A stretch of DNA of 31,024 bases from positions 1 to 31,024 of the forward strand of contig NW_003150015.1 in the NCBI RefSeq assembly GCF_000003605.2. Reading direction: 5' to 3'. Under the pieces are notes generated by a model that ran no database searches, was not told the origin of the DNA, and was given only the letters and a program-made list of their open reading frames with translations. The position numbers and the translations under genes were made by a program. Source of the DNA: Saccoglossus kowalevskii (lineage: Eukaryota > Hemichordata > Enteropneusta > Harrimaniidae). Position 1 is the first letter of the stretch. The number at the start of each line of letters is the position of its first letter. Positions 1 through 31,024 of the stretch are shown in pieces.

Positions 1-44
1 TTGATGTGTGATTCCCAGCTAACGTGACACTATCTTGTTCTAAC
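1..44. repeat. First monomer of the array (type A), 44 bp
   Basis: The window opens exactly at a unit boundary (TTGATG) and the next TTGATG is at 45. This monomer carries the type-A change, CTATCTTG in place of CTGTCCTG. Within the unit, GACA-C-TGTC at 26-34 is a perfect 4-bp inverted repeat about one central base. In T-type units AGTTA at 17-21 also faces TAACT at the junction with the next unit, giving a weak nested dyad. The only consensus CpG lies at 23-24. No start codon with a plausible open frame exists, because TGA or TAA occurs in all three forward frames of every unit. Confidence 0.95.
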
Positions 45-616
45 TTGATGTGTGATTCCCAGTTAACGTGATACTGTCGTGTTCTAACTTGATGTGTGAT
101 TCCCAGCTAACGTGACACTGTCCTGTTCTAACTTGATATGTGATTCCCTGTTAACGTGACACTGTTCTGTTCTAACTTGATGTGTGATTCCCAGATAACG
201 TGACACTGTCCTGTTCTAACTTGATGTGTGATTCCCAGCTAACGTGACACTGTCCTGTTCTAACTTGATGAATAATTCCCGGCTAATGTGACACTATCCT
301 GTTCTAACTTGATGTGTGATTCCCAGCTAACGTGACACTGTCCTGTTCTAACTTGATGTGTGATTTCCTGTTAGCGTGACACTGTCCTATTCTAATTTGA
401 TGTGTGATTCCCAGCTAACGTGACACTGTCCTGTTCTAACTTGATGTGTGATTCCCAGTTAATGTGACACTATCCTGTTCTAACTTGATGTGTGATTCCC
501 ATTTAACGTGACACTGTCCTGTTCTAACTTGATGTGTGATTCCCAGCTAACGTGACACTTTCCTGTTCTAATTTGATGTGTGATTCCCAGCTAACGTGAC
601 ACTGTCCTGTTCTAAT

Positions 617-669
617 TTGATGTGTGATTCCCAGTTAACGTGAGACTGTCCTGACTGTCCTGTTCTAAC
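617..669. repeat. 53-bp monomer class (type K), example
   Basis: This is the first of 45 monomers of 53 bp. The extra nine bases are a tandem copy of ACTGTCCTG, giving ACTGTCCTGACTGTCCTG. Nearly all such units also carry GAG instead of GAC before the duplication (GTGAGACTG), the exception being 2818-2870. Three subtypes exist: K (AGTTAAC), Q (AGATAAC) and N (CCAAGC with GAGGCTGACC). Each occupies its own fixed slot in the higher-order repeat, so the duplication is old and was spread by block copying rather than arising again each time. Confidence 0.93.
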
Positions 670-1083
670 TTGATGTGTGATTCCCAGTTAGCGTGACACG
701 GTCCTGTTCTAACTTGATGTGTGATTCCCAGATAACGTCACACTGTACTGTTCTAACTTGATGTGTGATTCCAAGCTAACGTGAGGCTGACCTGACTGTC
801 CTGTTCTAACTTGATGTGTGATTCCCAGTTAACGTGACACTGTGTTATTCAAACTTGATGTGTGATTCCCAGTTAACGTGACACTGTCCTGTTCTAATTT
901 GATATGTGATTCCCAGTTAACGTGAGACTGTCCTATTCTATTTTGATGTGTGATTCCCAGATAACGTGAGACTGTCCTGACTGTCCTGTTCTAACTTGAT
1001 GTGTGATTCCCAGTTAACGTGACACTGTCCTGTTCTAACTTGATGTGTGATTCCCAGCTAACGTGAGACTGTCCTGTTCTAAC

Positions 1084-2113
1084 TTGATGTGTGATTCCCA
1101 GCTAACGTGACACTATCTTGTTCTAACTTGATGTGTGATTCCCAGTTAACGTGACACTGTCGTGTTCTAACTTGATGTGTGATTCCCAGCTAACGTGACA
1201 CTGTCCTGTTCTAACTTGATATGTGATTCCCTGTTAACGTGACACTGTTCTGTTCTAACTTGATGTGCGATTCCCAGATAACGTGACACTGTCCTGTTCT
1301 AACTTGATGTGTGATTCCCAGCTAACGTGACACTGTCCTGTTCTAACTTGATGAATAATTCCCGGCTAATGTGACACTATCCTGTTCTAACTTGATGTGT
1401 GATTCCCAGCTAACGTGACACTGTCCTGTTCTAACTTGATGTGTGATTTCCTGTTAGCGTGACACTGTCCTATTCTAATTTGATGTGTGATTCCCAGCTA
1501 ACGTGACACTGTACTGTTCTAACTTGATGTGTGATTCCCAGTTAATGTGACACTATCCTGTTCTAACTTGATGTGTGATTCCCATTTAACGTGACACTGT
1601 CCTGTTCTAACTTGATGTGTGATTCCCAGCTAACGTGACACTTTCCTGTTCTAATTTGATGTGTGATTCCCAGCTAACGTGACACTGTCCTGTTCTAATT
1701 TGATGTGTGATTCCCAGATAACGTCACACTGTACTGTTCTAACTTGATGTGTGATTCCAAGCTAACGTGAGGCTGACCTGACTGTCCTGTTCTAACTTGA
1801 TGTGTGATTCCCAGTTAACGTGACACTGTGTTATTCAAACTTGATGTGTGATTCCCAGTTAACGTGACACTGTCCTGTTCTAATTTGATGTGTGATTCCC
1901 AGTTAACGTGAGACTGTCCTATTCTATTTTGATGTGTGATTCCCAGATAACGTGAGACTGTCCTGACTGTCCTGTTCTAACTTGATGTGTGATTTCCAGT
2001 TAACGTGACACTGTCCTGTTCTAACTTGATGTGTGATTCCCAGTTAACGTGACACTGTCCTGTTCTAACTTGATGTGTGATTCCCAGCTAACGTGAGACT
2101 GTCCTGTTCTAAC
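1084..2113. repeat. 24-unit higher-order repeat, copy 2, with a 97-bp deletion
   Basis: Order: A B S D E S F S G S H I J S M N O R P Q R R T, 23 units and 1030 bp. Relative to copy 1, units K and L are missing (53+44 = 97 bp) and one R has been added (44 bp), which accounts exactly for the length difference. Single changes against copy 1 include GCGATT in unit E at 1260, GTACTG in the S at 1480 and GATTTCC in the R at 1982. Loss of whole monomers with register kept points to unequal exchange between homologous units. Confidence 0.92.
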
Positions 2114-2870
2114 TTGATGTGTGATTCCCAGCTAACGTGACACTATCTTGTTCTAACTTGATGTGTGATTCCCAGTTAACGTGACACTGTCGTGTTCTAA
2201 CTTGATGTGTGATTCCCAGCTAACGTGACACTGTCCTGTTCTAACTTGATATGTGATTCCCTGTTAACGTGACACTGTCCTGTTCTAACTTGATGTGTGA
2301 TTCCCAGCTAACGTGACACTGTCCTGTTCTAACTTGATGAATAATTCCCGGCTAATGTGACACTATCCTGTTCTAACTTGATGTGTGATTCCCAGCTAAC
2401 GTGACACTGTACTGTTCTAACTTGATGTGTGATTTCCTGTTAGCGGGACACTGTCCTATTCTAACTTGATGTGTGATTCCCAGCTAACGTGACACTGTCC
2501 TGTTCTAACTTGATGTGTGATTCCCAGTTAATGTGACACTATCCTGTTCTAACTTGATGTGTGATTCCCATTTGACGTGACACTGTCCTGTTCTAACTTG
2601 ATGTGTGATTCCCAGCTAACGTGACACTGTCCTGTTCTAACTTGATGTGTGATTCCCAGTTAATGTGACACTATCCTGTTCTAACTTGATGTGTGATTCC
2701 CATTTAACGTGACACTGTCCTGTTCTAACTTGATGTGTGATTCCCAGCTAATGTGACACTTTCCTGTTCTAATTTGATGTGTGATTCCCAGCTAACGTGA
2801 CACTGTCCTGTTCTAATTTGATGTGTGATTCCCAGTTAACGTGACACTGTCCTGACTGTCCTGTTCTAAC
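2114..2870. repeat. 24-unit higher-order repeat, copy 3, rearranged (757 bp)
   Basis: Order: A B S D S F S G S H I S H I J S K, 17 units. E is absent. The triplet S-H-I is tandemly duplicated (2466-2597 and 2598-2729, 132 bp each). The final K (2818-2870) has the 9-bp duplication but keeps GAC rather than GAG, unlike the other 53-mers. Everything after K in copy 1 (L to T) is gone, and the array passes straight into the next repeat type at 2871. Confidence 0.9.
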
Positions 2871-3495
2871 TTGATGTGTGATTCCCAGCTAACGTGACAC
2901 TGTCCTGTTCTAACTTGATATGTGATTCCCTGTTAACGTGACACTGTTCTGTTCTAAATTGATGTGTGATTCCCAATTAACGTGACACTGTTCTGTTCTA
3001 ACTTGATGTGTGATTCCCAGATAACGTGACACAGTCCTGTTCTAACTTGATGTGTGATTCCCAGCTAACGTGACACTGTCCTGTTCTAACTTGATGAATA
3101 ATTCCCGGCTAATGTGACACTATCCTGTTCTAACTTGATGTGTGATTCCCAGCTAACGTGACACTGTCCTGTTCTAACTTGATGTGTGATTTCCTGTTAG
3201 CGTGACACTGTCCTATTCTAACTTGATGTGTGATTCCCAGCTAACGTGACACTGTCCTGTTCTAACTTGATGTGTGATTCCCAGTTAATGTGACACTATC
3301 CTGTTCTAACTTGATGTGTGATTCCCATTTAACGTGACACTGTCCTGTTCTAACTTGATGTGTGATTCCCAGCTAACGTGACACTTTCCTGTTCTAATTT
3401 GATGTGTGATTCCCAGCTAACGTGACACTGTCCTGTTCTAATTTGATGTGTGATTCCCAGTTAACGTGAGACTGTCCTGACTGTCCTGTTCTAAC
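2871..3495. repeat. 14-unit higher-order repeat, copy 1 (625 bp)
   Basis: Order: S D C E S F S G S H I J S K, 13 units of 44 bp and one of 53 bp. Its marker is C (CCAATTAACG), which directly follows D and is absent from the 24-unit series. Otherwise it is a shortened relative of that series, lacking A, B and L-T. The block restarts at 3496. Further copies of its S-D-C core are at 5644, 17370, 18946 and 28938. Confidence 0.91.
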
Positions 3496-4129
3496 TTGAT
3501 GTGTGATTCCCAGCTAACGTGACACTGTCCTGTTCTAACTTGATATGTGATTCCCTGTTAACGTGACACTGTTCTGTTCTAACTTGATGTGTGATTCCCA
3601 ATTAACGTGACACTGTTCTGTTCTAACTTGATGTGTGATTCCCAGATAACGTGACACTGTCCTGTTCTAACTTGATGTGTGATTCCCAGCTAACGTGACA
3701 CTGTCCTGTTCTAACTTGATGAATAATTCCCGGCTAATGTGACACTATCCTGTTCTAACTTGATGTGTGATTCCCAGCTAACGTGACACTGTCCTGTTCT
3801 AACTTGATGTGTGATTCCCAGTTAATGTGACACTATCCTGTTCTAACTTGATGTGTGATTCCCAGCTAACGTGACACTTTCCTGTTCTAATTTGATGTGT
3901 GATTCCCAGCTAACGTGACACTGTCCTGTTCTAATTTGATGTGTGATTCCCAGTTAACGTGAGACTGTCCTGACTGTCCTGTTCTAACTTGATGTGTGAT
4001 TCCCAGTTAGCGTGACACGGTCCTGTTCTAACTTGATGTGTGATTCCCAGATAACGTCACACTGTACTGTTCTAACTTGATGTGTGATTCCAAGCTAACG
4101 TGAGGCTGACCTGACTGTCCTGTTCTAAC
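3496..4129. repeat. 14-unit higher-order repeat, copy 2, then K-L-M-N
   Basis: Order: S D C E S F S H J S K L M N. Compared with the preceding copy it has lost G with one S, and I. After K it continues into L M N, the sequence that follows K in the 24-unit repeat, so this copy joins the two higher-order types at a shared K. The 53-bp units here are K at 3936 and N at 4077. Confidence 0.9.
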
Positions 4130-5458
4130 TTGATGTGTGATTCCCAGCTAACGTGACACTGTCCTGTTCTAATTTGATGTGTGATTCCCAGCTAACGTGA
4201 CACTGTCCTATTCTAATTTGATGTGTGATTCCCAGATAACGTGAGACTGTCCTGACTGTCCTGTTCTAACTTGATGTGTGATTCCCAGTTAACGTGACAC
4301 TGTCCTGTTCTAACTTGATGTGTGATTCCCAGTTAACGTGACACTGTCCTGTTCTAACTTGATGTGTGATTCCCAGTTAACGTGACACTGCACTGTTCTA
4401 ACTTGATGTGTGATTCCAAGCTAACGTGACACTGTCCAGTTCTAACTTGATGTGTGATTCCCAGCTAACGTGACACTGTCCTGTTCTAACTTGATGTGTG
4501 ATTCCCAGTTAACGTGACACTGTCCTGTTCTAACTTGATATGTGATTCCCAGTTAATGTGACACTGTCCTATTCTAACTTGATGTATGATTTCCTGTTAA
4601 CGTGACACTGTCCTATTCTAACTTGATGTGTGATTCCCAGTTAACGTGACACTGTCCTGTTCTACCTTGATGTGTGATTCCCTGTTAACGTCACACTGTC
4701 CTATTCAAACTTGATGTGTGATTCCAAGCTAACGTGACACTGTCCAGTTCTAACTTGATGTGTGATTCCCAGCTAACGTGACACTGTCCTGTTCTAACTT
4801 GATGTGTGATTCCCAGTTAACGTGACACTGTCCTGTTCTAACTTGATGTGTGATTCCCAGTTAACGAGACACTGTCCTGCTCTAACTTGATGTGTGATTC
4901 CCTGTTAACGTGACACTGTCCTATTCTAACTTGATGTGTGATTCCCAGCTAACGTGACACTGCCCTGTTCTAATTTGATGTGTGATTCCCTGTTAACGTG
5001 ACACTGTTCTATTCTAATTTGATGTGTGATTCCCAGCTAACGTGACACTGTCCTGTTCTAATTTGATGTGTGATTCCCTGTTAACGTGACACTCTCCTAT
5101 TCTAACTTGATGTGTGATTCCCAGTTAATGTGACACTGTGCTGTTCTAATTTGATGTGTGATTCCCAGTTAACGTGACACTGTCCTGTTCTAACTGGATG
5201 TGTGATTCCCAGCTAACGTGACACTGTCCTGTTCTAACTTGATGTATGATTCCCACCTGACGTGACACTGTCCTGTTCTAACTTGATATGTGATTCCCAG
5301 TTAACGTGACACTATCCTGTTCTAAATTGATGTGTGATTCCCTGTTAACGTGACACCATCCTATTCTAACTTGATGTGTGATTCCCAGTTAACGTGACAC
5401 TGTCCTATTCTAACTTGATGTGTGATTCCCAGTTAATATGACACTGTGCTGTTCTAAT
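4130..5458. repeat. 1329-bp segment with a near-identical copy at 20557-21885
   Basis: Order: S S Q R R X Y S R Z W V U Y S R (GAGACAC/TGCTC variant) b c d S b e R f g (GATATG unit) (CACCATCC unit) R e. The same units occur in the same order exactly 16,427 bp downstream, and I noticed no difference by eye. Shared private variants include TATTCAAAC in U (4667 and 21094), CTCTCC in b (5063 and 21490), ACGAGACAC with CTGCTC (4843 and 21270) and CACCATCC (5327 and 21754). The two copies end where one continues with I and the other with R. Confidence 0.92.
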
Positions 5459-5863
5459 TTGATGTGTGATTCCCATTTAACGTGACACTGTCCTGTTCTA
5501 ACTTGATGTGTGATTCCCAGCTAACGTGACACTTTCCTGTTCTAATTTGATGTGTGATTCCCAGCTAACGTGACACTGTCCTGTTCTAATTTGATGTGTG
5601 ATTCCCAGTTAACGTGAGACTGTCCTGACTGTCCTGTTCTAACTTGATGTGTGATTCCCAGCTAACGTGACACTGTCCTGTTCTAACTTGATATGTGATT
5701 CCCTGTTAACGTGACACTGTTCTGTTCTAACTTGATGTGTGATTCCCAATTAACGTGACACTGTCCTGTTCTAACTTGATGTGTGATTCCCAGCTAACGT
5801 GACACTGTCCTGTTCTAACTTGATGTGTGATTTCCTGTTAGCGTGACACTGTCCTATTCTAAC
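5459..5863. repeat. Fragment of the 14-unit repeat (I J S K S D C S G)
   Basis: Nine units including one 53-mer (K at 5591). The order matches the junction between successive 14-unit repeats, with E and F-S missing after C. Together with the preceding units from 5151, this stretch reappears at 28445-29157 with an offset of 23,294 bp. Confidence 0.9.
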
Positions 5864-6665
5864 TGGATGTGTGATTCCCAGCTAACGTGACACTGTCCTG
5901 TTCTAACTTGATGTATGATTCCCACCTGACGAGACACTGTCCCTGTTATAACTTGATGTGTGATTCCCAGTTAACGTGACACTGTCCTGTTCTAATTTGA
6001 TGTGTGATTCCCAGATAACGTGAGACTGTCCTTACTGTCCTGTTCTAACTTGATGTGTGATTCCCAGGTAACGTGACACTGTCCTGTTCTAACTTGATGT
6101 GTGATTCCCAGTTAACGTGACACTGTCCTGTTCTAACTTGATGTGTGATTCCCAGTTAACGTGACACTGCACTGTTCTAAATTGATGTGTGATTCCAAGC
6201 TAACGTGACACTGTCCAGTTCTAACTTGATGTGTGATTCCCAGTTAACGTGACACTGTCCTGTTCTAACTTGATGTGTGATTCCCAGTTAACGTGACACT
6301 GTCCTGTTCTAACTTGATGTGTGATTCCCAGTTAACGTGACACTGCACTGTTCTAAATTGATGTGTGATTCCAAGCTAACGTGACACTGTCCTGTTCTAA
6401 CTTGATGTGTGATTCCCAGTTAACGTGACACTGTCCTGTTCTAACTTGATATGTGATTCCCAGTTAATGTGACACTGTCCTATTCTAACTTGATGTATGA
6501 TTTCCTGTTAACGTGACACTGTCCTATTCTAACTTGATGTGTGATTCCCAGTTAACGTGACACTGTCCTGTTCTACCTTGATGTGTGATTCCCTGTTAAC
6601 GTCACACTGTCCTATTCTAACTTGATGTGTGATTCCAAGCTAACGTGACACTGTCCAGTTCTAAC
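5864..6665. repeat. Mixed units leading into the Z-W-V-U-Y module
   Basis: Order: f g R Q (AGGTAAC unit) R X Y R R X (Y-like) R Z W V U Y. The g unit at 5908 is 45 bp: it has an extra C (GTCCCTG) and reads TTATAAC instead of TTCTAAC. The Q at 5997 reads CTTACTG. R-X-Y-like appears twice in succession (6094 and 6270), so this stretch is itself locally duplicated. Z W V U Y is the hallmark five-unit module of the second repeat family, also found at 4535, 7282, 9236, 11024, 12388, 16041, 19985, 20962, 24184 and 30328. Confidence 0.88.
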
Positions 6666-7105
6666 TTGATGTGTGATTCCCAGTTAACGTGACACTGTCC
6701 TATTCTAACTTGATGTATGATTTCCTGTTAACGTGACACTGTCCTATTCTAACTTGATGTTTGATTCCCAGCTAACGTGACACTGCCCTGTTCTAATTTG
6801 ATGTGTGATTCCCTGTTAACGTGACACTGTTCTATTCTAATTTGATGTGTGATTCCCAGCTAACGTGACACTGTCCAGTTCTAACTTGATGTGTGATTCC
6901 CAGTTAACGTGACACTGTCCTATTCTAACTTGATGTATGATTTCCTGTTAACGTGACACTGTCCTATTCTAACTTGATGTTTGATTCCCAGCTAACGTGA
7001 CACTGCCCTGTTCTAATTTGATGTGTGATTCCCTGTTAACGTGACACTGTTCTATTCTAATTTGATGTGTGATTCCCAGCTAACGTGACACTGTCCTGTT
7101 CTAAC
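6666..7105. repeat. 220-bp five-unit tandem duplication
   Basis: R(CCTATTC)-W-c-d-S at 6666-6885 is followed at once by the same five units at 6886-7105. The copies look identical except at the end of the last S unit, which reads GTCCAG in the first copy and GTCCTG in the second. The c unit here has GATGTTTGATT. Such close identity between adjacent blocks indicates a recent duplication compared with the surrounding array. Confidence 0.93.
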
Positions 7106-7809
7106 TTGATGTGTGATTCCCAGTTAACGTGACACTGTCCTGTTCTAACTTGATGTGTGATTCCCAGTTAACGTGACACTGCACTGTTCTAAATTGATGT
7201 GTGATTCCAAGCTAACGTGACACTGTCCTGTTCTAACTTGATGTGTGATTCCCAGTTAACGTGACACTGTCCTGTTCTAACTTGATATGTGATTCCCAGT
7301 TAATGTGACACTGTCCTATTCTAACTTGATGTATGATTTCCTGTTAACGTGACACTGTCCTATTCTAACTTGATGTGTGATTCCCAGTTAACGTGACACT
7401 GTCCTGTTCTACCTTGATGTGTGATTCCCTGTTAACGTCACACTGTCCTATTCTAACTTGATGTGTGATTCCAAGCTAACGTGACACTGTCCAGTTCTAA
7501 CTTGATGTGTGATTCCAAGCTAACGTGACACTGTCCTATTCTAACTTGATGTATGATTTCCTGTTAACGTGACACTGTCCTATTCTAACTTGATGTTTGA
7601 TTCCCAGCTAACGTGACACTGTCCTGTTCTAATTTGATGTGTGATTCCCTGTTAACGTGACACTGTCCTATTCTAACTTGATGTGTGATTCCCAGTTAAT
7701 GTGACACTGTGCTGTTCTAATTTGACGTGTGATTCCCAGTTAACGTGACACTATCCTGTTCTAACTTGATGTGTGATTCCCAGTTAACGTGACACTATCC
7801 TGTTCTAAA
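7106..7809. repeat. R-X-Z-W-V-U-Y stretch, source-like for 30152-30547
   Basis: Order: R X (Y-like) R Z W V U Y (CCAAGC unit with CCTATTC) W S(GATGTTT) b e, then two R-type units with CTATCC, the first with GACGTGTG and the second ending CTAAA. The part up to 7501 matches 30152-30547 in the same order. The closing pair of CTATCC units always precedes the j unit that opens the large block at 7810. Confidence 0.88.
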
Positions 7810-10800
7810 TTGATGTGTCATTCCCTGTTAACGTGACACTGTCCTATTCTAACTTGATGTGTGATTCCCAGCTAACGTGACACTGTCCTGTTCTAACTGG
7901 ATGTGTGATTCCCAGCTAACGTGACACTGTCCTGTTCTAACTTGATGTATGATTCCCACCTGACGAGACACTGTCCTGTTCTAACTTGATGTGTGATTCC
8001 CAGTTAACGTGACACTGTCCTGTTCTAACTTGATGTGTGATTCCCAGCTAACGTGAGACTGTCCTGTTCTAACTTGATGTGTGATTCCCAGCTAACGTGA
8101 CACTATCTTGTTCTAACTTGATGTGTGATTCCCAGTTAACGTGACACTGTCGTGTTCTAACTTGATGTGTGATTCCCAGCTAACGTGACACTGTCCTGTT
8201 CTAACTTGATATGTGATTCCCTGTTAACGTGACACTGTTCTGTTCTAACTTGATGTGTGATTCCCAGATAACGTGACACTGTCCTGTTCTAACTTGATGT
8301 GTGATTCCCAGCTAACGTGACACTGTCCTGTTCTAACTTGATGAATAATTCCCGGCTAATGTGACACTATCCTGTTCTAACTTGATGTGTGATTCCCAGC
8401 TAACGTGACACTGTCCTGTTCTAACTTGATGTGTGATTTCCTGTTAGCGTGACACTGTCCTATTCTAACTTGATGTGTGATTCCCAGCTAACGTGACACT
8501 GTCCTGTTCTAACTTGATGTGTGATTCCCAGTTAATGTGACACTATCCTGTTCTAACTTGATGTGTGATTCCCAGTTAACGTGACACTGTCCTGTTCTAA
8601 CTTGATGTGTGATTCCCAGCTAACGTGACACTTTCCTGTTCTAATTTGATGTGTGATTCCCAGCTAACGTGACACTGTCCTGTTCTAATTTGATGTGTGA
8701 TTCCCAGTTAACGTGAGACTGTCCTGACTGTCCTGTTCTAACTTGATGTGTGATTCCCAGTTAGCGTGACACGGTCCTGTTCTAACTTGATGTGTGATTC
8801 CCAGTTAACGTGACACTGTATTATTCAAACTTGATGTGTGATTCCCAGTTAACGTGACACTGTCCTGTTCTAATTTGATGTGTGATTCCCAGTTAACGTG
8901 AGACTGTCCTATTCTAATTTGATGTGTGATTCCCAGATAACGTGAGACTGTCCTGACTGTCCTGTTCTAACTTGATGTGTGATTCCCAGTTATCGTGACA
9001 CTGTCCTGTTCTAACTTGATGTGTGATTCCCAGTTAACGTGACACTGTCCTGTTCTAACTTGATGTGTGATTCCCAGTTAACGTGACACTGCACTGTTCT
9101 AACTTGATGTGTGATTCCAAGCTAACGTGACACTGTCCAGTTCTAACTTGATGTGTGATTCCCAGCTAACGTGACACTGTCCTGTTCTAACTTGATGTGT
9201 GATTCCCAGTTAACGTGACACTGTCCTGTTCTAACTTGATATGTGATTCCCAGTTAATGTGACACTGTCCCATTCTAACTTGATGTATGATTTCCTGTTA
9301 ACGTGACACTGTCCTATTCTAACTTGATGTGTGATTCCCAGTTAACGTGACACTGTCCTGTTCTACCTTGATGTGTGATTCCCTGTTAACGTCACACTGT
9401 CCTATTCTAACTTGATGTGTGATTCCAAGCTAACGTGACACTGTCCAGTTCTAACTTGATGTGTGATTCCCAGCTAACGTGACACTGTCCTGTTCTAACT
9501 TGATGTGTGATTCCCAGTTAACGTGACACTGTCCTGTTCTAACTTGATGTGTGATTCCCAAGTTAATGTGACACTGTCCTATTCTAACTTGATGTATGAT
9601 TTCCTGTTAACGTGACACTGTCCTATTCTAACTTGATGTGTGATTCCCAGCTAACGTGACACTGCCCTGTTCTAATTTGATGTGTGATTCCCTGTTAACG
9701 TGACACTGTTCTATTCTAATTTGATGTGTGATTCCCAGCTAACGTGACACTGTCCTGTTCTAATTTGATGTGTGATTCCCAGCTAACGTGACACTGTCCT
9801 ATTCTAATTTGATGTGTGATTCCCAGATAACGTGAGACTGTCCTGACTGTCCTGTTCTAACTTGATGTGTGATTCCCAGTTAACGTGACACTGTCCTGTT
9901 CTAACTTGATGTGTGATTCCCAGTTAACGTGACACTGTCCTGTTCTAACTTGATGTGTGATTCCCAGTTAACGTGACACTGTCCTGTTCTAACTTGATGT
10001 GTGATTCCAAGCTAACGTGAGGCTGACCTGACTGTCCTGTTCTAACTTGATGTGTGATTCCCAGTTAACGTGACACTGTGTTATTCAAACTTGATGTGTG
10101 ATTCCCAGTTAACGTGACACTGTCCTGTTCTAATTTGATGTGTGATTCCCAGTTAACGTGAGACTGTCCTATTCTATTTTGATGTGTGATTCCCAGATAA
10201 CGTGAGACTGTCCTGACTGTCCTGTTCTAACTTGATGTGTGATTCCCAGTTAACGTGACACTGTCCTGTTCTAACTTGATGTGTGATTCCCAGTTAACGT
10301 GACACTGTCCTGTTCTAACTTGATGTGTGATTCCCAGCTAACGTGAGACTGTCCTGTTCTAACTTGATGTGTGATTCCCAGCTAACGTGACACTATCTTG
10401 TTCTAACTTGATGTGTGATTCCCAGTTAACGTGACACTGTCGTGTTCTAACTTGATGTGTGATTCCCAGCTAACGTGACACTGTCCTGTTCTAACTTGAT
10501 ATGTGATTCCCTGTTAACGTGACACTGTTCTGTTCTAACTTGATGTGTGATTCCCAGCTAACGTGACACTGTCCTGTTCTAACTTGATATGTGATTCCCT
10601 GTTAACGTGACACTGTTCTATTCTAACTTGATGTGTGATTCCCAGTTAACGTGACACTGTCCTGTTCTAACTTGATGTGTGATTCCCAGCTAACGTGACA
10701 CTGTCCTGTTCTAACTTGATGTATAATTCCCAGCTAACGTGACACTATCCTGTTCTAACTTGATGTGTGATTCCCAGCTACCGTGACACCGTCCTGTTCT

Positions 10801-11507
10801 AACTTGATGTGTGATTCCCTGTTAGCGTGACACTGTCCTATTCTAACTTGATGTGTGATTCCCAGCTAACGTGACACTGTCCTGTTCTAACTTGATGTGT
10901 GATTCCCAGTTAATGTGACACTATCCTGTTCTAACTTGATGTGTGATTCCCAGTTAACGTGACACTGTCCTGTTCTAACTTGATGTGTGATTCCCAGCTA
11001 ACGTGACACTGTCCTGTTCTAACTTGATATGTGATTCCCAGTTAATGTGACACTGTCCTATTCTAACTTGATGTATGATTTCCTGTTAACGTGACACTGT
11101 CCTATTCTAACTTGATGTGTGATTCCCAGTTAACGTGACACTGTCCTGTTCTACCTTGATGTGTGATTCCCTGTTAACGTCACACTGTCCTATTCTAACT
11201 TGATGTGTGATTCCAAGCTAACGTGACACTGTCCAGTTCTAACTTGATGTGTGATTCCCTGTTAACGTGACACTGTCCTATTCTAACTTGATGTTTGATT
11301 CCCAGCTAACGTGACACTGCCCTGTTCTAATTTGATGTGTGATTCCCTGTTAACGTGACACTGTTCTATTCTAATTTGATGTGTGATTCCCAGCTAACGT
11401 GACACTGTCCTATTCTAATTTGATGTGTGATTCCCAGTTAACGTGACACTATCCTGTTCTAACTTGATGTGTGATTCCCAGTTAACGTGACACTATCCTG
11501 TTCTAAA
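7810..11507. repeat. Large super-repeat block, copy 1 (3698 bp)
   Basis: It opens with j S f g R T, then A B S D E S F S G S H R J S K L O R P Q, then an X-Y-Z-W-V-U-Y tract, Q R R R N O R P Q R R T, a second A B S D tract, and closes with Z W V U Y b c d. The same layout reappears from 13092. Markers private to this pair are TTATCG (8972 and 14210), CCCATTC in Z (9236 and 14430), the GATGTATAATTCCCAG unit (10716 and 15733) and AGCTACCG (10760 and 15777). The unit at 9544 is 45 bp, with CCAAGTTAATG. Confidence 0.9.
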
Positions 11508-13091
11508 TTGATGTGTCATTCCCTGTTAACGTGACACTGTCCTATTCTAACTTGATGTGTGATTCCCAGCTAACGTGACACTGTCCTGTTCTAACTGGAT
11601 GTGTGATTCCCAGCTAACGTGACACTGTCCTGTTCTAACTTGATGTATGATTCCCACCTGACGAGACACTGTCCTGTTCTAACTTGATGTGTGATTCCCA
11701 GTTAACGTGACACTGTCCTGTTCTAACTTGATGTGTGATTCCCAGCTAACGTGACACTATCTTGTTCTAACTTGATGTGTGATTCCCAGTTAACGTGACA
11801 CTGTCGTGTTCTAACTTGATGTGTGATTCCCAGCTAACGTGACACTGTCCTGTTCTAACTTGATATGTGATTCCCTGTTAACGTGACACTGTTCTGTTCT
11901 AACTTGATGTGTGATTCCCAGATAACGTGACACTGTCCTGTTCTAACTTGATGTGTGATTCCCAGCTAACGTGACACTGTCCTGTTCTAACTTGATGAAT
12001 AATTCCCGGCTAATGTGACACTATCCTGTTCAAACTTGATGTGTGATTCCCAGCTAACGTGACACTGTCCTGTTCTAACTTGATGTGTGATTTCCTGTTA
12101 GCGTGACACTGTCCTATTCTAATTTGATGTGTGATTCCCAGCTAACGTGACACTGTCCTGTTCTAACTTGATGTGTGATTCCCAGTTAACGTGACACTGT
12201 CCTGTTCTAACTTGATGTGTGATTCCCAGTTAACGTGACACTGCACTGTTCTAAATTGATGTGTGATACCAAGCTAACGTGACACTGTCCAGTTCTAACT
12301 TGATGTGTGATTCCCAGCTAACGTGACACTCTCCTGTTCTAACTTGATGTGTGATTCCCAGTTAACGTGACACTGTCCTGTTCTAACTTGATATGTGATT
12401 CCCAGTTAATGTGACACTGTCCTATTCTAACTTGATGTATGATTTCCTGTTAACGTGACACTGTCCTATTCTAACTTGATGTGTGATTCCCAGTTAACGT
12501 GACACTGTCCTGTTCTACCTTGATGTGTGATTCCCTGTTAACGTCACACTGTCCTATTCTAACTTGATGTGTGATTCCAAGCTAACGTGACACTGTCCAG
12601 TTCTAACTTGATGTGTGATTCCCAGCTAACGTGACACTGTCCTGTTCTAACTTGATGTGTGATTCCCAGTTAACGTGACACTGTCCTGTTCTAACTTGAT
12701 GTGTGATTCCCAGTTAATGTGACACTGTCCTATTCTAACTTGATGTATGATTTCCTGTTAACGTGACACTGTCCTATTCTAACTTGATGTTTGATTCCCA
12801 GCTAACGTGACACTGCCCTGTTCTAATTTGATGTGTGATTCCCTGTTAACGTGACACTGTCCTATTCTAACTTGATGTGTGATTCCCAGCTAACGTGACA
12901 CTGTCCTGTTCTAATTTGATGTGTGATTCCCTGTTAACGTGACACTGTCCTATTCTAACTTGATGTGTGATTCCCAGTTAATGTGACACTGTGCTGTTCT
13001 AATTTGATGTGTGATTCCCAGTTAACGTGACACTATCCTGTTCTAACTTGATGTGTGATTCCCAGTTAACGTGACACTATCCTGTTCTAAA
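11508..13091. repeat. Short version of the super-repeat block (1584 bp)
   Basis: It opens like its neighbours with j S f g R then A B S D E S F S G S, but at 12168 jumps to R X Y S R Z W V U Y S R Z W c b S b e and ends with the two CTATCC units that precede the next j. Compared with the block at 7810, the tract from H through the second A-B series is missing. Oddities: GATACCAAG in the Y-like unit at 12256, TTCAAAC at the end of F at 11992 and CTCTCC in the S at 12300. Confidence 0.9.
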
Positions 13092-18276: not shown

Positions 18277-19165
18277 TTGATGTGTGATTCCCAGCTAACG
18301 TGACACTATCTTGTTCTAACTTGATGTGTGATTCCCAGTTAACGTGACACTGTCGTGTTCTAACTTGATGTGTGATTCCCAGCTAACGTGACACTGTCCT
18401 GTTCTAACTTGATATGTGATTCCCTGTTAACGTGACACTGTTCTGTTCTAACTTGATGTGTGATTCCCAGATAACGTGACACTGTCCTGTTCTAACTTGA
18501 TGTGTGATTCCCAGCTAACGTGACACTGTCCTGTTCTAACTTGATGAATAATTCCCGGCTAATGTGACACTATCCTGTTCTAACTTGATGTGTGATTCCC
18601 AGCTAACGTGACACTGTCCTGTTCTAACTTGATGTGTGATTTCCTGTTAGCGTGACACTGTCCTATTCTAACTTGATGTGTGATTCCCAGCTAACGTGAC
18701 ACTGTCCTGTTCTAACTTGATGTGTGATTCCCAGTTAATGTGACACTATCCTGTTCTAACTTGATGTGTGATTCCCATTTAACGTGACACTGTCCTGTTC
18801 TAACTTGATGTGTGATTCCCAGCTAATGTGACACTTTCCTGTTCTAATTTGATGTGTGATTCCCAGCTAACGTGACACTGTCCTGTTCTAATTTGATGTG
18901 TGATTCCCAGTTAACGTGAGACTGTCCTGACTGTCCTGTTCTAACTTGATGTGTGATTCCCAGCTAACGTGACACTGTCCTGTTCTAACTTGATATGTGA
19001 TTCCCTGTTAACGTGACACTGTTCTGTTCTAACTTGATGTGTGATTCCCAATTAACGTGACACTGTCCTGTTCTAACTTGATGTGTGATTCCCAGCTAAC
19101 GTGACACTGTCCTGTTCTAACTTGATGTGTGATTTCCTGTTAGCGTGACACTGTCCTATTCTAAC
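18277..19165. repeat. 24-unit series A-J joined to a 14-unit segment
   Basis: Order: A B S D E S F S G S H I J S K S D C S G. The first thirteen units follow the reference series from position 1. At K the array switches into S D C S G of the 14-unit type. The stretch from I (18761) onward matches 28753 onward at an offset of 9992 bp, except that J here has AGCTAATG and the later copy has AGCTAACG. Confidence 0.9.
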
Positions 19166-20741
19166 TTGATGTGTGATTCCCAGCTAACGTGACACTGTCC
19201 TGTTCTAACTTGATGTGTGATTCCCAGTTAATGTGACACTATCCTGTTCTAACTTGATGTGTGATTCCCAGCTAACGTGACACTTTCCTGTTCTAATTTG
19301 ATGTGTGATTCCCAGCTAACGTGACACTGTCCTGTTCTAATTTGATGTGTGATTCCCAGTTAACGTGAGACTGTCCTGACTGTCCTGTTCTAACTTGATG
19401 TGTGATTCCCAGTTAGCGTGACACGGTCCTGTTCTAACTTGATGTGTGATTCCCAGATAACGTCACACTGTACTGTTCTAACTTGATGTGTGATTCCAAG
19501 CTAACGTGAGGCTGACCTGACTGTCCTGTTCTAACTTGATGTGTGATTCCCAGTTAACGTGACACTGTGTTATTCAAACATGATGTGTGGTTCCCAGTTA
19601 ACGTGACACTGTCCTGTTCTAATTTGATGTGTGATTCCCAGTTAACGTGAGACTGTCCTATTCTAATTTGATGTGTGATTCCCAGATAACGTGAGACTGT
19701 CCTGACTGTCCTGTTCTAACTTGATGTGTGATTCCCAGTTAACGTGACACTGTCCTGTTCTAACTTGATGTGTGATTCCCAGTTAATGTGACACTGTCCT
19801 GTTCTAACTTGGTGTGTGATTCCCAGTTAACGTGACACTGCACTGTTCTAACTTGATGTGTGATTCCAAGCTAACGTGACACTGTCCAGTTCTAACTTGA
19901 TGTGTGATTCCCAGCTAACGTGACACTGTCCTGTTCTAACTTGATGTGTGATTCCCAGTTAACGTGACACTGTCCTGTTCTAACTTGATATGTGATTCAC
20001 AGTTAATGTGACACTGTCCCATTCTAACTTGATGTATGAATTCCTGTTAACGTGACACTGTCCTATTCTAACTTGATGTGTGATTCCCAGTTAACGTGAC
20101 ACTGTCCTGTTCTACCTTGATGTGTGATTCCCTGTTAACGTCACACTGTCCTATTATAACTTGATGTGTGATTCCAAGCTAACGTGACACAGTCCAGTTC
20201 TATCTTGATGTGTGATTCCCAGCTAACGTGACACTGTCCTGTTCTAACTTGATGTGTGATTCCCAGTTAACGTGACACTGTCCTGTTCTAACTTGATGTG
20301 TGATTCCCAGTTAATGTGACACTGTCCTATTCTAACTTGATGTATGATTTCCTGTTAACGTGACACTGTCCTATTCTAACTTGATGTGTGATTCCCAGTT
20401 AACGTGACACTGTCCTGTTCTAACTTGATGTGTGATTCCCTGTTAACGTGACACTGTCCTATTCTAACTTGATGTGTGATTCCCAGCTAACGTGACACTG
20501 CCCTGTTCTAATTTGATGTGTGATTCCCTGTTAACGTGACACTGTTCTATTCTAATTTGATGTGTGATTCCCAGCTAACGTGACACTGTCCTGTTCTAAT
20601 TTGATGTGTGATTCCCAGCTAACGTGACACTGTCCTATTCTAATTTGATGTGTGATTCCCAGATAACGTGAGACTGTCCTGACTGTCCTGTTCTAACTTG
20701 ATGTGTGATTCCCAGTTAACGTGACACTGTCCTGTTCTAAC
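19166..20741. repeat. 1576-bp segment duplicated at 23365-24940 (copy I)
   Basis: Order: S H J S K L M N O R P Q R (AGTTAATG) X Y S R Z W V U Y S R Z W R b c d S S Q R. The copy lies 4199 bp downstream. Shared private changes: ATGATGTGTGGTTCCC opening the R at 19580, TTGGTG in X at 19809, GTATGAATTCC in W at 20029, TATTATAAC in U at 20117, and CACAGTCCAG with TATC in Y at 20161. This copy alone has TCACAG in Z at 19985. Its last units overlap the segment shared with 4130-5458. Confidence 0.92.
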
Positions 20742-21885
20742 TTGATGTGTGATTCCCAGTTAACGTGACACTGTCCTGTTCTAACTTGATGTGTGATTCC
20801 CAGTTAACGTGACACTGCACTGTTCTAACTTGATGTGTGATTCCAAGCTAACGTGACACTGTCCAGTTCTAACTTGATGTGTGATTCCCAGCTAACGTGA
20901 CACTGTCCTGTTCTAACTTGATGTGTGATTCCCAGTTAACGTGACACTGTCCTGTTCTAACTTGATATGTGATTCCCAGTTAATGTGACACTGTCCTATT
21001 CTAACTTGATGTATGATTTCCTGTTAACGTGACACTGTCCTATTCTAACTTGATGTGTGATTCCCAGTTAACGTGACACTGTCCTGTTCTACCTTGATGT
21101 GTGATTCCCTGTTAACGTCACACTGTCCTATTCAAACTTGATGTGTGATTCCAAGCTAACGTGACACTGTCCAGTTCTAACTTGATGTGTGATTCCCAGC
21201 TAACGTGACACTGTCCTGTTCTAACTTGATGTGTGATTCCCAGTTAACGTGACACTGTCCTGTTCTAACTTGATGTGTGATTCCCAGTTAACGAGACACT
21301 GTCCTGCTCTAACTTGATGTGTGATTCCCTGTTAACGTGACACTGTCCTATTCTAACTTGATGTGTGATTCCCAGCTAACGTGACACTGCCCTGTTCTAA
21401 TTTGATGTGTGATTCCCTGTTAACGTGACACTGTTCTATTCTAATTTGATGTGTGATTCCCAGCTAACGTGACACTGTCCTGTTCTAATTTGATGTGTGA
21501 TTCCCTGTTAACGTGACACTCTCCTATTCTAACTTGATGTGTGATTCCCAGTTAATGTGACACTGTGCTGTTCTAATTTGATGTGTGATTCCCAGTTAAC
21601 GTGACACTGTCCTGTTCTAACTGGATGTGTGATTCCCAGCTAACGTGACACTGTCCTGTTCTAACTTGATGTATGATTCCCACCTGACGTGACACTGTCC
21701 TGTTCTAACTTGATATGTGATTCCCAGTTAACGTGACACTATCCTGTTCTAAATTGATGTGTGATTCCCTGTTAACGTGACACCATCCTATTCTAACTTG
21801 ATGTGTGATTCCCAGTTAACGTGACACTGTCCTATTCTAACTTGATGTGTGATTCCCAGTTAATATGACACTGTGCTGTTCTAAT
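20557..21885. repeat. 1329-bp segment, second copy of 4130-5458
   Basis: Identical unit order to 4130-5458 at an offset of 16,427 bp, beginning S S Q R R X Y and ending with the e unit that carries TAATATG (21842). All private variants listed for the first copy are present here, and I saw no mismatch by eye. Before the segment this copy has c d where the first has N; after it, R f g where the first has I J. Confidence 0.92.
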
Positions 21886-22061
21886 TTGATGTGTGATTCC
21901 CAGTTAACGTGACACTGTCCTGTTCTAACTGGATGTGTGATTCCCAGCTAACGTGACACTGTCCTGTTCTAACTTGATGTATGATTCCCACCTGACGTGA
22001 CACTGTCCTGTTCTAACTTGATGTGTGATTCCCAGTTAACGTGACACTATCCTGTTCTAAA
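21534..22061. repeat. Partial local duplication of e-R-f-g (308-bp step)
   Basis: The series e R f g and an R-like unit with CTATCC/CTAAA begins at 21534 and begins again at 21842, seven units (308 bp) downstream. The second pass replaces GATATG in the unit after g by GATGTG and then diverges. Near 5107-5458 only the first pass is present, so the second was probably added on this side after the long-range copying, or lost on the other. Confidence 0.85.
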
Positions 22062-23364: not shown

Positions 23365-24940
23365 TTGATGTGTGATTCCCAGTTAACGTGACACTGTCCT
23401 GTTCTAACTTGATGTGTGATTCCCAGTTAATGTGACACTATCCTGTTCTAACTTGATGTGTGATTCCCAGCTAACGTGACACTTTCCTGTTCTAATTTGA
23501 TGTGTGATTCCCAGCTAACGTGACACTGTCCTGTTCTAATTTGATGTGTGATTCCCAGTTAACGTGAGACTGTCCTGACTGTCCTGTTCTAACTTGATGT
23601 GTGATTCCCAGTTAGCGTGACACGGTCCTGTTCTAACTTGATGTGTGATTCCCAGATAACGTCACACTGTACTGTTCTAACTTGATGTGTGATTCCAAGC
23701 TAACGTGAGGCTGACCTGACTGTCCTGTTCTAACTTGATGTGTGATTCCCAGTTAACGTAACACTGTGTTATTCAAACATGATGTGTGGTTCCCAGTTAA
23801 CGTGACACTGTCCTGTTCTAATTTGATGTGTGATTCCCAGTTAACGTGAGACTGTCCTATTCTAATTTGATGTGTGATTCCCAGATAACGTGAGACTGTC
23901 CTGACTGTCCTGTTCTAACTTGATGTGTGATTCCCAGTTAACGTGACACTGTCCTGTTCTAACTTGATGTGTGATTCCCAGTTAATGTGACACTGTCCTG
24001 TTCTAACTTGGTGTGTGATTCCCAGTTAACGTGACACTGCACTGTTCTAACTTGATGGGTGATTCCAAGCTAACGTGACACTGTCCAGTTCTAACTTGAT
24101 GTGTGATTCCCAGCTAACGTGACACTGTCCTGTTCTAACTTGATGTGTGATTCCCAGTTAACGTGACACTGTCCTGTTCTAACTTGATATGTGATTCCCA
24201 GTTAATGTGACACTGTCCCATTCTAACTTGATGTATGAATTCCTGTTAACGTGACACTGTCCTATTCTAACTTGATGTGTGATTCCCAGTTAACGTGACA
24301 CTGTCCTGTTCTACCTTGATGTGTGATTCCCTGTTAACGTCACACTGTCCTATTATAACTTGATGTGTGATTCCAAGCTAACGTGACACAGTCCAGTTCT
24401 ATCTTGATGTGTGATTCCCAGCTAACGTGACACTGTCCTGTTCTAACTTGATGTGTGATTCCCAGTTAACGTGACACTGTCCTGTTCTAACTTGATGTGT
24501 GATTCCCAGTTAATGTGACACTGTCCTATTCTAACTTGATGTATGATTTCCTGTTAACGTGACACTGTCCTATTCTAACTTGATGTGTGATTCCCAGTTA
24601 ACGTGACACTGTCCTGTTCTAACTTGATGTGTGATTCCCTGTTAACGTGACACTGTCCTATTCTAACTTGATGTGTGATTCCCAGCTAACGTGACACTGC
24701 CCTGTTCTAATTTGATGTGTGATTCCCTGTTAACGTGACACTGTTCTATTCTAATTTGATGTGTGATTCCCAGCTAACGTGACACTGTCCTGTTCTAATT
24801 TGATGTGTGATTCCCAGCTAACGTGACACTGTCCTATTCTAATTTGATGTGTGATTCCCAGATAACGTGAGACTGTCCTGACTGTCCTGTTCTAACTTGA
24901 TGTGTGATTCCCAGTTAACGTGACACTGTCCTGTTCTAAC
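23365..24940. repeat. 1576-bp segment, copy II of 19166-20741
   Basis: Same order as copy I at offset 4199, starting with R instead of S. It has two changes that copy I lacks: GTAACACTG in O (23735) and GATGGGTG in Y (24052). Both recur in the third copy at 29528 and 29845, so copies II and III are closer to each other than to copy I. At 24941 the matching stops, because an R present at 20742 is missing here and X follows directly. Confidence 0.92.
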
Positions 24941-26949: not shown

Positions 26950-28444
26950 TTGATGTGTCATTCCCTGTTAACGTGACACTGTCCTATTCTAACTTGATGT
27001 GTGATTCCCAGCTAACGTGGCACTGTCCTGTTCTAACTGGATGTGTGATTCCCAGCTAACGTGACACTGTCCTGTTCTAACTTGATGTGTGATTCCCACC
27101 TGACGTGACACTGTCCTGTTCTAACTTTATGTGTGATTCCCAGTTAACGTGACACTGTCCTGTTCTAACTGGATGTGTGATTCCAAGCTAACGTGAGACT
27201 GTCCTGTTCTAACTTGATGTGTGATTCCCATGTAACGTGACACTATCTTGTTCTAACTTGATGTGTGATTCCCAGTTAACGTGACACTGTCGTGTTCTAA
27301 CTTGATGTGTGATTCCCAGCTAACGTGACACTGTCCTGTTCTAACTTGATATGTGATTCCCTGTTAACGTGACACTGTTCTATTCTAACTTGATGTGTGA
27401 TTCCCAGTTAACGTGACACTGTCCTGTTCTAACTTGATGTGTGATTCCCAGCTAACGTGACACTGTCCTGTTCTAACTTGATGTATAATTCCCAGCTAAC
27501 GTGACACTATCCTGTTCTAACTTGATGTGTGATTCCCAGTTAACGTGACACTGTCCTGTTCTAACTGGATGTGTGATTCCCAGCTAACGTGAGACTGTCC
27601 TGTTCTAACTTGATGTGTGATTCCCATGTAACGTGACACTATCTTGTTCTAACTTGATGTGTGATTCCCAGTTAACGTGACACTGTCGTGTTCTAACTTG
27701 ATGTGTGATTCCCAGCTAACGTGACACTGTCCTGTTCTAACTTGATATGTGATTCCCTGTTAACGTGACACTGTTCTATTCTAACTTGATGTGTGATTCC
27801 CAGTTAACGTGACACTGTCCTGTTCTAACTTGATGTGTGATTCCCAGCTAACGTGACACTGTCCTGTTCTAACTTGATGTATAATTCCCAGCTAACGTGA
27901 GACTGTCCTATTCTAACTTGATGTGTGATTCCCAGCTAACGTGACACTGTCCTGTTCTAACTTGATGTGTGATTCCCTGTTAGCGTGACACTGTCCTATT
28001 CTAATTTGATGTGTGATTCCCAGCTAACGTGACACTGTCCTGTTCTAACTTGATGTGTGATTCCCTGTTAGCGTGACACTGTCCTATTCTAACTTGATGT
28101 GTGATTCCCAGCTAACGTGACACTGTCCTGTTCTAACTTGATGTGTGATTCCCAGTTAATGTGACACTATCCTGTTCTAACTTGATGTGTGATTCCCAGT
28201 TAACGTGACACTGTCCTGTTCTAACTTGATGTGTGATTCCCAGCTAACGTGACACTGTCCTGTTCTAATTTGATGTGTGATTCCCAGCTAACGTGACACT
28301 GTCCTGTTCTAACTTGATGTGTGATTCCCGCTAACGTGACACTGTCCTGTTCTAACTTGATGCGTGATTCCCAGTTAACGTGACACTATCCTGTTCTAAC
28401 TTGATGTGTGATTTCCAGCTAACGTGACACTGTCCTGTTCTAAC
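26950..28444. repeat. j-led block with A-B tracts and terminal S/G units
   Basis: Order: j S f g R T A B S D R S (GTATAATTCCCAG) R T A B S D R S (GTATAATTCCCAG) S G S G S H R S S (43-bp unit) (GATGCGTG) S. It resembles the openings at 7810, 11508, 13092 and 16613. Single changes are GTGGCAC at 26994 and TTTATG in the R at 27126. The unit at 28314 lacks the A of CCAGC (CCCGCTAAC) and is 43 bp. A 396-bp internal duplication is listed separately. Confidence 0.88.
27170..27917. repeat. 396-bp nine-unit tandem duplication
   Basis: T A B S D R S (GTATAATTCCCAG) R at 27170-27565 is followed by the same series from 27566 to 27917, without the final R. Both A units (27214 and 27610) carry CCATGTAACG, seen nowhere else in the window, and both T units begin TGGATG. 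Differences are few: CCAAGC versus CCCAGC in T, and GAGACTGTCCTATTC in the last unit of the second copy. Confidence 0.92.
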
Positions 28445-29976: not shown

Positions 29977-30019
29977 TGATGTATGGATTTCCTGTAACGT
30001 GACACTGTCCTATTCTAAC
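29977..30019. repeat. Damaged 43-bp unit at a segment junction
   Basis: A W-like unit with three single-base length changes: one T is lost at the front (CTAACTGATG), one G is gained (GTATGGATTT) and one T is lost (CCTGTAACG). The net length is 43 bp. To its left the array follows the 23365 segment; to its right it follows the 6974 segment, where W is the preceding unit. No other unit in the window has more than one indel. It is either a repaired breakpoint or a sequence or assembly error. Confidence 0.85.
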
Positions 30020-30547
30020 TTGATGTTTGATTCCCAGCTAACGTGACACTGCCCTGTTCTAATTTGATGTGTGATTCCCTGTTAACGTGACACTGTTCTA
30101 TTCTAATTTGATGTGTGATTCCCAGCTAACGTGACACTGTCCTGTTCTAACTTGATGTGTGATTCCCAGTTAACGTGACACTGTCCTGTTCTAACTTGAT
30201 GTGTGATTCCCAGTTAACGTGACACTGCACTGTTCTAAATTGATGTGTGATTCCAAGCTAACGTGACACTGTCCTGTTCTAACTTGATGTGTGATTCCCA
30301 GTTAACGTGACACTGTCCTGTTCTAACTTGATATGTGATTCCCAGTTAATGTGACACTGTCCTATTCTAACTTGATGTATGATTTCCTGTTAACGTGACA
30401 CTGTCCTATTCTAACTTGATGTGTGATTCCCAGTTAACGTGACACTGTCCTGTTCTACCTTGATGTGTGATTCCCTGTTAACGTCACACTGTCCTATTCT
30501 AACTTGATGTGTGATTCCAAGCTAACGTGACACTGTCCAGTTCTAAC
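30020..30547. repeat. 528-bp segment, copy of 6974-7501
   Basis: Order: c d S R X (Y-like) R Z W V U Y, the same twelve units as 6974-7501, offset 23,046 bp, with no mismatch noticed. The c unit has the GATGTTTGATT form that follows W in the 220-bp duplication at 6666-7105. That fits with the damaged unit just before it being a remnant of W. Confidence 0.9.
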
Positions 30548-30855
30548 TTGATGTGTGATTCCCAGTTAACGTGACACTGTCCTATTCTAACTTGATGTAT
30601 GATTTCCTGTTAACGTGACACTGTCCTATTCTAACTTGATGTGTGATTCCCAGTTAACGTGACACTGTCCTGTTCTACCTTGATGTGTGATTCCCTGTTA
30701 ACGTCACACTGTCCTATTCTAACTTGATGTGTGATTCCAAGCTAACGTGACACTGTCCAGTTCTAACTTGATGTGTGATTCCCAGTTAACGTGACACTGT
30801 CCTATTCTAACTTGATGTATGATTTCCTGTTAACGTGACACTGTCCTATTCTAAC
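30416..30855. repeat. 220-bp five-unit tandem duplication (V U Y R W)
   Basis: V-U-Y-R(CCTATTC)-W at 30416-30635 is repeated at 30636-30855 with no visible difference. After the second copy the array continues c d S(GTCCAG), the order seen once at 6534-6885. The extra set is therefore a local addition in this copy, of the same length as the 220-bp duplication at 6666-7105 but with a different starting unit. Confidence 0.92.
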
Positions 30856-30987
30856 TTGATGTTTGATTCCCAGCTAACGTGACACTGCCCTGTTCTAATT
30901 TGATGTGTGATTCCCTGTTAACGTGACACTGTTCTATTCTAATTTGATGTGTGATTCCCAGCTAACGTGACACTGTCCAGTTCTAAC

Positions 30988-31024
30988 TTGATGTGTGATT
31001 CCCAGTTAACGTGACACTGTGATG
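30988..31024. repeat. Truncated last unit with an unusual end
   Basis: The final 37 bp begin as an ordinary R unit, but the last bases read CACTGTGATG where R has CACTGTCCTG. O-type units start CACTGTGTT and e-type units CACTGTGCT; none other has GTGATG. With only four deviating bases this could be a new variant, the first bases beyond the array, or low-quality end sequence. Confidence 0.7.

Follow-up and report, generated by a model that had tools for sequence, protein, structure and literature searches.

A 44-bp tandem array of Saccoglossus kowalevskii is a mosaic of repeated blocks

How does a long array of a short unit come by its internal order? The question is raised by a stretch of 31,024 nucleotides from the hemichordate Saccoglossus kowalevskii (assembly GCF_000003605.2, contig NW_003150015.1), referred to here at its full length as the window, which is a complete contig (C4015) and consists solely of a head-to-tail array of 44-bp monomers, without other sequence. 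Arrays of short units are usually held to change by slippage and unequal crossover. A first-pass annotation, made from the letters of the window alone, had described a pure satellite in which about 30 monomer variants stand in fixed orders at several nested scales, that is, as higher-order repeats (HORs). The analysis presented here recovers the recurrent orders, but the array is better described as a mosaic of blocks copied across its length, together with local tandem repeats, than as nested HORs. With 696 readable monomers and 303 long exact repeats at random-looking offsets, the locus forms a compact test bed on which copying can be set against crossover; should its sister arrays in the genome behave alike, they would provide a set of independent replicates.

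Monomers, blocks and offsets

Tandem Repeats Finder (TRF) calls one array of 44-bp units, which spans positions 1–31020 (695.8 copies, 89% matches), with only the 4 bases 31021–31024 outside the call. Wrap-around decomposition yields 696 monomers, namely 644 of 44 bp, 45 of 53 bp, 4 of 45 bp, 2 of 43 bp and a 37-base end piece, and the 53-bp form contains a 9-base internal duplication. Both methods thus return one array across the window, as the annotation had proposed. Since the array touches both contig ends, 31 kb is only its minimum length and the flanks lie outside the contig. The monomers fall into 136 distinct sequences; 39 of these recur 5 times or more, 29 of them 7 times or more, and 58 are found once, in keeping with the roughly 30 recurrent variants claimed beforehand. 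The mean distance between two monomers is 4.73 edits (~89% identity), and adjacency does not raise their likeness (4.78 edits between neighbours against 4.73 for random pairs); neighbours identical to each other are rarer than expected (9 of 695, a frequency of 0.013 against 0.038). The G+C content of the window is 42.3%, and a 26-base core of the monomer is expected to give 626 forward matches from the window alone when up to 3 mismatches are allowed. In the CG of monomer columns 23–24, 62 of 644 monomers have C replaced by T but only 7 of 644 have G replaced by A, an asymmetry that may reflect either block inheritance or strand-biased change.

Monomer order was compared by gapped alignment at the level of monomers, a base-level self-comparison by blastn having returned mostly the full 44-bp lattice and not being used. 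The alignment gave 44 block pairs with a score of at least 20, at offsets that include 5282, 4199, 16,427, 5793, 1576, 1083 and 625 bp. The top block score is 78, as against 7–11 in 12 monomer-order shuffles and 19–38 in 12 first-order Markov sequences. The longest exact repeats measure 1346 bp (offset 16,427), 806 bp (offset 5238), 801 bp (offset 5793) and 774 bp (offset 4199), and 80.4% of the window falls within exact repeats of 220 bp or more. Hence the annotation was right that variants recur in fixed orders, and the offsets it had named (1083, 625, 5282, 4199, 5793 and 16,427 bp) all reappear above both the shuffle and the Markov nulls.

The blocks are mostly dispersed. Among the strong block pairs, adjacency is seen in only 2 of 44, and in 4 of 44 the two blocks come within 6 monomers of each other. 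Exact repeats that reach 150 bp number 303, and 285 of them are dispersed while only 4 are tandem; here tandem denotes a match of at least 0.8 of the offset and dispersed a match of less than a quarter of it, and 100-mers found more than 40 times are excluded. The offsets of these 303 repeats show no dependence on distance, their quantiles (977, 4454, 9280, 14948 and 23243) lying close to those of random position pairs (794, 4146, 9090, 15529 and 24017). No dominant period was found at lags of up to 300 monomers, the best mean distance being 4.375 edits, while the minimum over 100 shuffles is 4.398 and random pairs differ by 4.73, and in plain ungapped autocorrelation multiples of 44 dominate. 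A periodic HOR across the whole array was rejected, as no lag dominates.

Superimposed on this pattern are local tandem repeats of 5, 7, 9, 14, 19, 22 and 35 units, in runs of only 2–3 copies. Adjacent 5-unit copies, counted as windows along the array, number 11 against a shuffle mean of 1.4, and 7-unit copies 9 against 0.26, whereas adjacent copies of 2 units (19 vs 40) and of 3 units (2 vs 7.9) fall below the shuffles. Offset 220 shows two exact matches, 239 and 292 bp long, and offset 396 one of 319 bp; the 5-unit (220-bp) and 9-unit (396-bp) repeats of the annotation are therefore real, as local tandem repeats. Across roughly 9–20 kb there is a local periodicity of 35–36 monomers (~1.58 kb).

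The proposal of a nested higher-order organisation consequently survives in part. Diverged monomers do recur in order, and in the local copies at 625 and 1083 bp, where block copies differ by a mean of 0.31 and 1.08 edits per monomer, respectively, the n-mers are far more alike than the monomers within them; such copies, however, are few. As an HOR is built of n-mer blocks placed side by side, and here just two block pairs are adjacent and four exact repeats tandem, no tandem n-mer block makes up the array and an HOR in the sense of alpha satellite is not borne out. A super-repeat of about 5.2 kb, which had also been put forward, turns out to be one 4-kb block that was copied once, 1.2 kb away, and is not a periodic unit. 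The principal blocks and repeats are collected in Table 1.

Table 1. Extent of the array and location of its block and local tandem repeats
Feature	Position	Strand	Evidence
Whole contig, 44-bp head-to-tail array, 696 monomers, 45 with the 53-bp variant	1..31024	+	TRF, decomposition
Tandem repeat of neighbouring blocks, offset 1083 bp (1-1611 vs 1084-2597)	1..2597	+	gapped monomer alignment
Tandem repeat of neighbouring blocks, offset 625 bp, 14-unit (2598-3178 vs 3223-3803)	2598..3803	+	gapped monomer alignment
Block with copy at 20557-21929, offset 16,427, exact over 1346 bp	4130..5502	+	exact repeats, alignment
Copy 2 of the 4130-5502 block	20557..21929	+	exact repeats, alignment
Local tandem 5-unit (220-bp) repeat	6578..7149; further 24897-25380, 30284-30899	+	local tandem scan, exact repeats
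~4-kb block with copy at 12872-16744, offset 5282, whole-monomer indels	7590..11639	+	alignment
Copy 2 of the 7590-11639 block	12872..16744	+	alignment
Near-adjacent block repeat, offset 1576 bp (16921-18232 vs 18497-19808), within the local 35-36-monomer periodicity	16921..19808	+	alignment
Block with copy at 23365-25116, offset 4199	19166..20961	+	exact repeats, alignment
Block with copy at 29158-29976, offset 5793	23365..24183	+	exact repeats, alignment
Local tandem 9-unit (396-bp) repeat	26950..28005	+	local tandem scan, exact repeats

Origin of the mosaic

The best explanation of the mosaic is, with reasonable though by no means full confidence, recombinational repair within the array, in which blocks would be copied out of register and tandem duplications would occur occasionally. 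A break at one position of the array would be repaired from an out-of-register position in the same array, or possibly in a sister or homologous copy of it, and a tract of roughly 10–40 monomers (about 0.4–1.8 kb), a length suggested by simulation, would be copied in the process. The putative route is gene conversion, synthesis-dependent strand annealing (SDSA) or break-induced replication, and tandem duplications may now and then add to the copying. Human minisatellite mutation is ascribed, in passages of PMC2599865, to SDSA gene conversion and non-reciprocal exchange.

Arrays of monomer types were simulated with tandem duplication and deletion, with block copying and with mixtures of these. 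Over a parameter grid (48 settings, each run 3 times), tandem events with a mean of 5–20 monomers led to an excess of short offsets or of tandem runs; copying with a mean of 20 monomers and tandem events with a mean of 60–200 both came near the observed values. Eight summary statistics served to rank 6840 runs; block copying (prior 0.50) accounts for 99 of the top 100, and the tract length among the best simulations had a median of 18 monomers with a 10–90% range of 9–42. In a further 6207 runs, which covered three size laws as well as mixtures, the best 100 comprised 59 of copying only (prior 0.17), 33 mixtures in which half or more was copying (0.16), 4 mixtures in which less was (0.16) and 4 that were tandem only (0.50).

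Unequal crossover in small steps (mean 5–20 monomers) was rejected, as it leaves too many short offsets and tandem runs; the median offset/N of tandem-only runs with a mean of 20 monomers is 0.093, against 0.305 observed. Unequal sister-chromatid exchange could nevertheless have acted alone if its steps spanned tens to hundreds of monomers, if the array extends beyond the contig and if the tandem copies were later broken up. This explanation can draw on the near fit of tandem-only runs with mean steps of about 60–200 monomers (the best is rank 63 of 6207, counted from 0) and on two clearly adjacent duplications. The offset distribution was tried as a test of copying against large-step crossover and does not discriminate, the offset medians failing to separate the two. 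Tandem-only runs, however, supply just 4 of the 100 best simulations although half of the 6207 runs were of that kind, and 1 of 100 in the 6840-run ranking. The rankings favour block copying over large-step unequal exchange, not decisively, and large-step crossover appears disfavoured in these models; that exchange alone made the array we consider unlikely. An assembly artefact, with reads or haplotypes misjoined at identical monomers, would itself produce a mosaic. Short repetitive contigs are a familiar weak point of assemblies, both contig ends lie inside the array and there are identical blocks of up to 1346 bp, but the 136 monomer types hold a consistent local order and a block mosaic at many scales recurs in 6 other arrays, making an artefact quite improbable. 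The second half of the window is not a copy of the first, because the offsets near 16 kb are not collinear.

It is also conceivable that the window samples the rearranged edge of a genuine HOR satellite that serves the chromosome, for example as a centromere, as could be read from the recurrent n-mers, the 35–36-monomer periodicity over roughly 9–20 kb and an array that exceeds the 31-kb contig. Against this stand the want of a dominant period, the two adjacent pairs among 44, the confinement of exact copies of the commonest monomer to a single contig of the readable assembly and the existence of many unrelated arrays that are alike. Moreover, no CENP-B-box-like site was found in the window with up to 1 mismatch, the box being a mammalian motif. 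Such a satellite is accordingly judged very unlikely. Least credible of all, and highly improbable, is an expansion in place of repeats from within a mobile element (Helitron/Helentron-like or linked to a long interspersed nuclear element, LINE). A 57-bp array in contig C3650 does start right behind a (TTA)n tract after what looks by eye like a LINE-like 3' end, but the window has no non-array sequence at all, and element-borne repeats should recur elsewhere, which the exact monomer does not do in the readable assembly.

Certain points weigh against block copying as the source of the mosaic. The simulation models are simple, with exact monomer identity, constant rates and no population, and tandem-only runs with a mean of 100–300 monomers give a median offset/N of 0.245–0.314, so close to the observed 0.305. 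Genuine tandem duplication is present, at 1083 and 625 bp and locally with k = 5, 7, 9, 14, 19, 22 and 35. Nor do the other arrays all follow suit: C4010 has 9 tandem repeats among its 35 long exact ones, and both there and in C4300 a monomer resembles its direct neighbours most, a sign of more change by small steps in these two arrays. Finally, the genome-wide search covered exact copies of one monomer in readable (non-N) sequence.

The locus among other arrays

The source assembly comprises 572 Mb in 4830 contigs, parts of which read as N. The commonest monomer has 91 exact matches in the readable assembly, on one strand and all on the window contig, the same 91 that the window contains. The array is thus apparently private to one locus, as far as exact copies of one monomer in the readable assembly are concerned. 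Two other arrays behave similarly: the core of the C4500 array gives 86 matches, all on C4500, and that of the C4016 array 252, of which the 100 among the matches listed are all on C4016.

The sample comprised stretches of 10 kb, 2 kb or 700 bases from 80 further contigs, which were chosen by their numbers and include 20 next to the window contig. Seventeen of the 80 stretches are all N, leaving 63 readable, and a tandem array covers at least 90% of the stretch in 28 of these 63 and not in the other 35. As the sample is one of stretches and rich in small contigs, it yields no share of the genome. The 28 consist of two 216-bp 5S ribosomal DNA (rDNA) arrays and 26 arrays with units of 20–102 bp; the two 5S arrays aside, no 12-mer is shared between any two consensus units or with the window unit. 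In six of these arrays, examined over 10 kb each, the long exact repeats are dispersed in 10 of 14, 20 of 35, 10 of 14, 9 of 11, 10 of 17 and 18 of 18 cases, the tandem ones numbering 3, 9, 0, 0, 2 and 0, respectively. Arrays like that of the window are thus numerous, and the window appears to be an unexceptional example of an extensive class that is typical for its genome. A bolder proposition, which we hold only tentatively and with more doubt than belief, is that the genome carries long minisatellite loci in very large number, each private and with a unit unrelated to the others, and each a block mosaic formed through distance-independent copying within its locus. If true, these loci would form a natural archive, spread over the genome of an invertebrate deuterostome, of recombinational repair out of register.

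The two 5S arrays are on C3444, which has 10 5S matches in 2 kb, and on C4011. Within C3650:2001-9000, the 57-bp array (652–3763, 54.6 copies) follows directly on (TTA)10 behind the LINE-like 3' end, and a second array with a 30-bp unit (5553–7000) starts 1.8 kb downstream of it; the arrangement hints that long contigs contain arrays too and that element tails may seed arrays next to them. Positions 1–10000 of C500 form a tandem array of ~261-bp units with one tRNA each (36 Rfam tRNA matches, all on the minus strand), which by the 90% threshold was counted among the 35 non-array stretches.

Relation to known repeats and minor observations

Short monomers with HORs are already on record. According to passages of PMC8125562, human satellite I has a 42-bp repeat that can form 2.97-kb HORs, and the 68-bp repeat of beta satellite likewise forms HORs, so that the contrast drawn by the annotation with the 171-bp alpha satellite becomes less sharp. 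With satellite I and beta satellite the window shares a short monomer whose variants recur in order at a larger scale; it differs in that it consists mostly of dispersed blocks on one contig, whereas the cited passages present those satellites as families of multimeric HORs and place beta satellite at several chromosomal sites. Like alpha-satellite HOR arrays, as portrayed in parts of PMC8122249 and PMC8125562, the window has divergent monomers in recurrent multi-monomer blocks. Unlike them, it has neither a long tandem run of one n-mer nor a CENP-B-box-like site, and its monomer identity is about 89%, compared with the 50–70% or about 70% that these passages give within alpha HORs.

Further parallels are the hypervariable human minisatellites MS32, CEB1 and MSY1, which in the sections of PMC2599865 devoted to them have units within 9–100 bp and internal maps of variant repeats, as the window does, and private loci, as the window apparently has. 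Their change is ascribed to gene conversion and SDSA, which may be the process in the window array too. The MSY1 allele described there has 77 repeats and single-repeat conversion, as against 696 monomers, 31 kb and predicted tracts of about 10–40 monomers in the window. Minisatellite units are set at 11–60 bp in PMC12692304 and minisatellite arrays at 0.5–30 kb in PMC8122249, as far as the relevant portions of these papers go. The unit length of 44 bp, with 45 of 696 monomers at 53 bp, falls within this range and the array is classed as a minisatellite on that account, although at 31 kb or more the window slightly exceeds the array length. In the crayfish Pontastacus leptodactylus, minisatellites make up 240 of 258 tandem repeat sequences, and its satellitome, as presented in part of PMC12692304, resembles the present genome in having many unrelated short-unit families. 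Saccoglossus did not occur among the literature matches listed, by which the satellite is not claimed to be unpublished.

Nothing points to a sequence-coded function of the window, and we infer that it has none. A coding array was rejected, there being no stop-to-stop open reading frame of at least 80 amino acids in the window, and a known RNA family likewise, as nothing in the window matches Rfam at gathering score. The single-strand fold of a monomer dimer is unremarkable against shuffles (z of 0.34 and -1.38), and a hairpin-driven array was dismissed for this reason. A viral origin was discarded as well, a 26-base pattern having 0 exact matches in IMG/VR.

Finally, contig C4830 (17,037 bp) of the same assembly is a mitochondrial genome with a Saccoglossus-type gene order. 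Ten frames read with code 5 match Pfam entries for COX1, ND2, ND1, COX2, CYTB, ATP6, ND5, ND6, COX3 and ND4; the small and large rRNAs were found by Rfam and tRNA-Pro and tRNA-Phe by ARAGORN, and ND3 and ND4L were assigned by eye. The order is COX2, ATP6, COX3, ND3, ND4L, ND4, ND5, CYTB, ND6 (reverse), 12S, 16S, ND2, ND1 and COX1 (reverse). Judged by this arrangement, the genome would be that of Saccoglossus or of another closely related member of the Harrimaniidae; a lancelet was rejected as its source, since the mitochondrial order of Asymmetron (PMC2034537) does not match. An inversion of COX1 and a transposition of ND1 or ND2 lead from the Balanoglossus order to that of Saccoglossus kowalevskii, as stated in a passage by Perseke and co-workers (PMC3121625).

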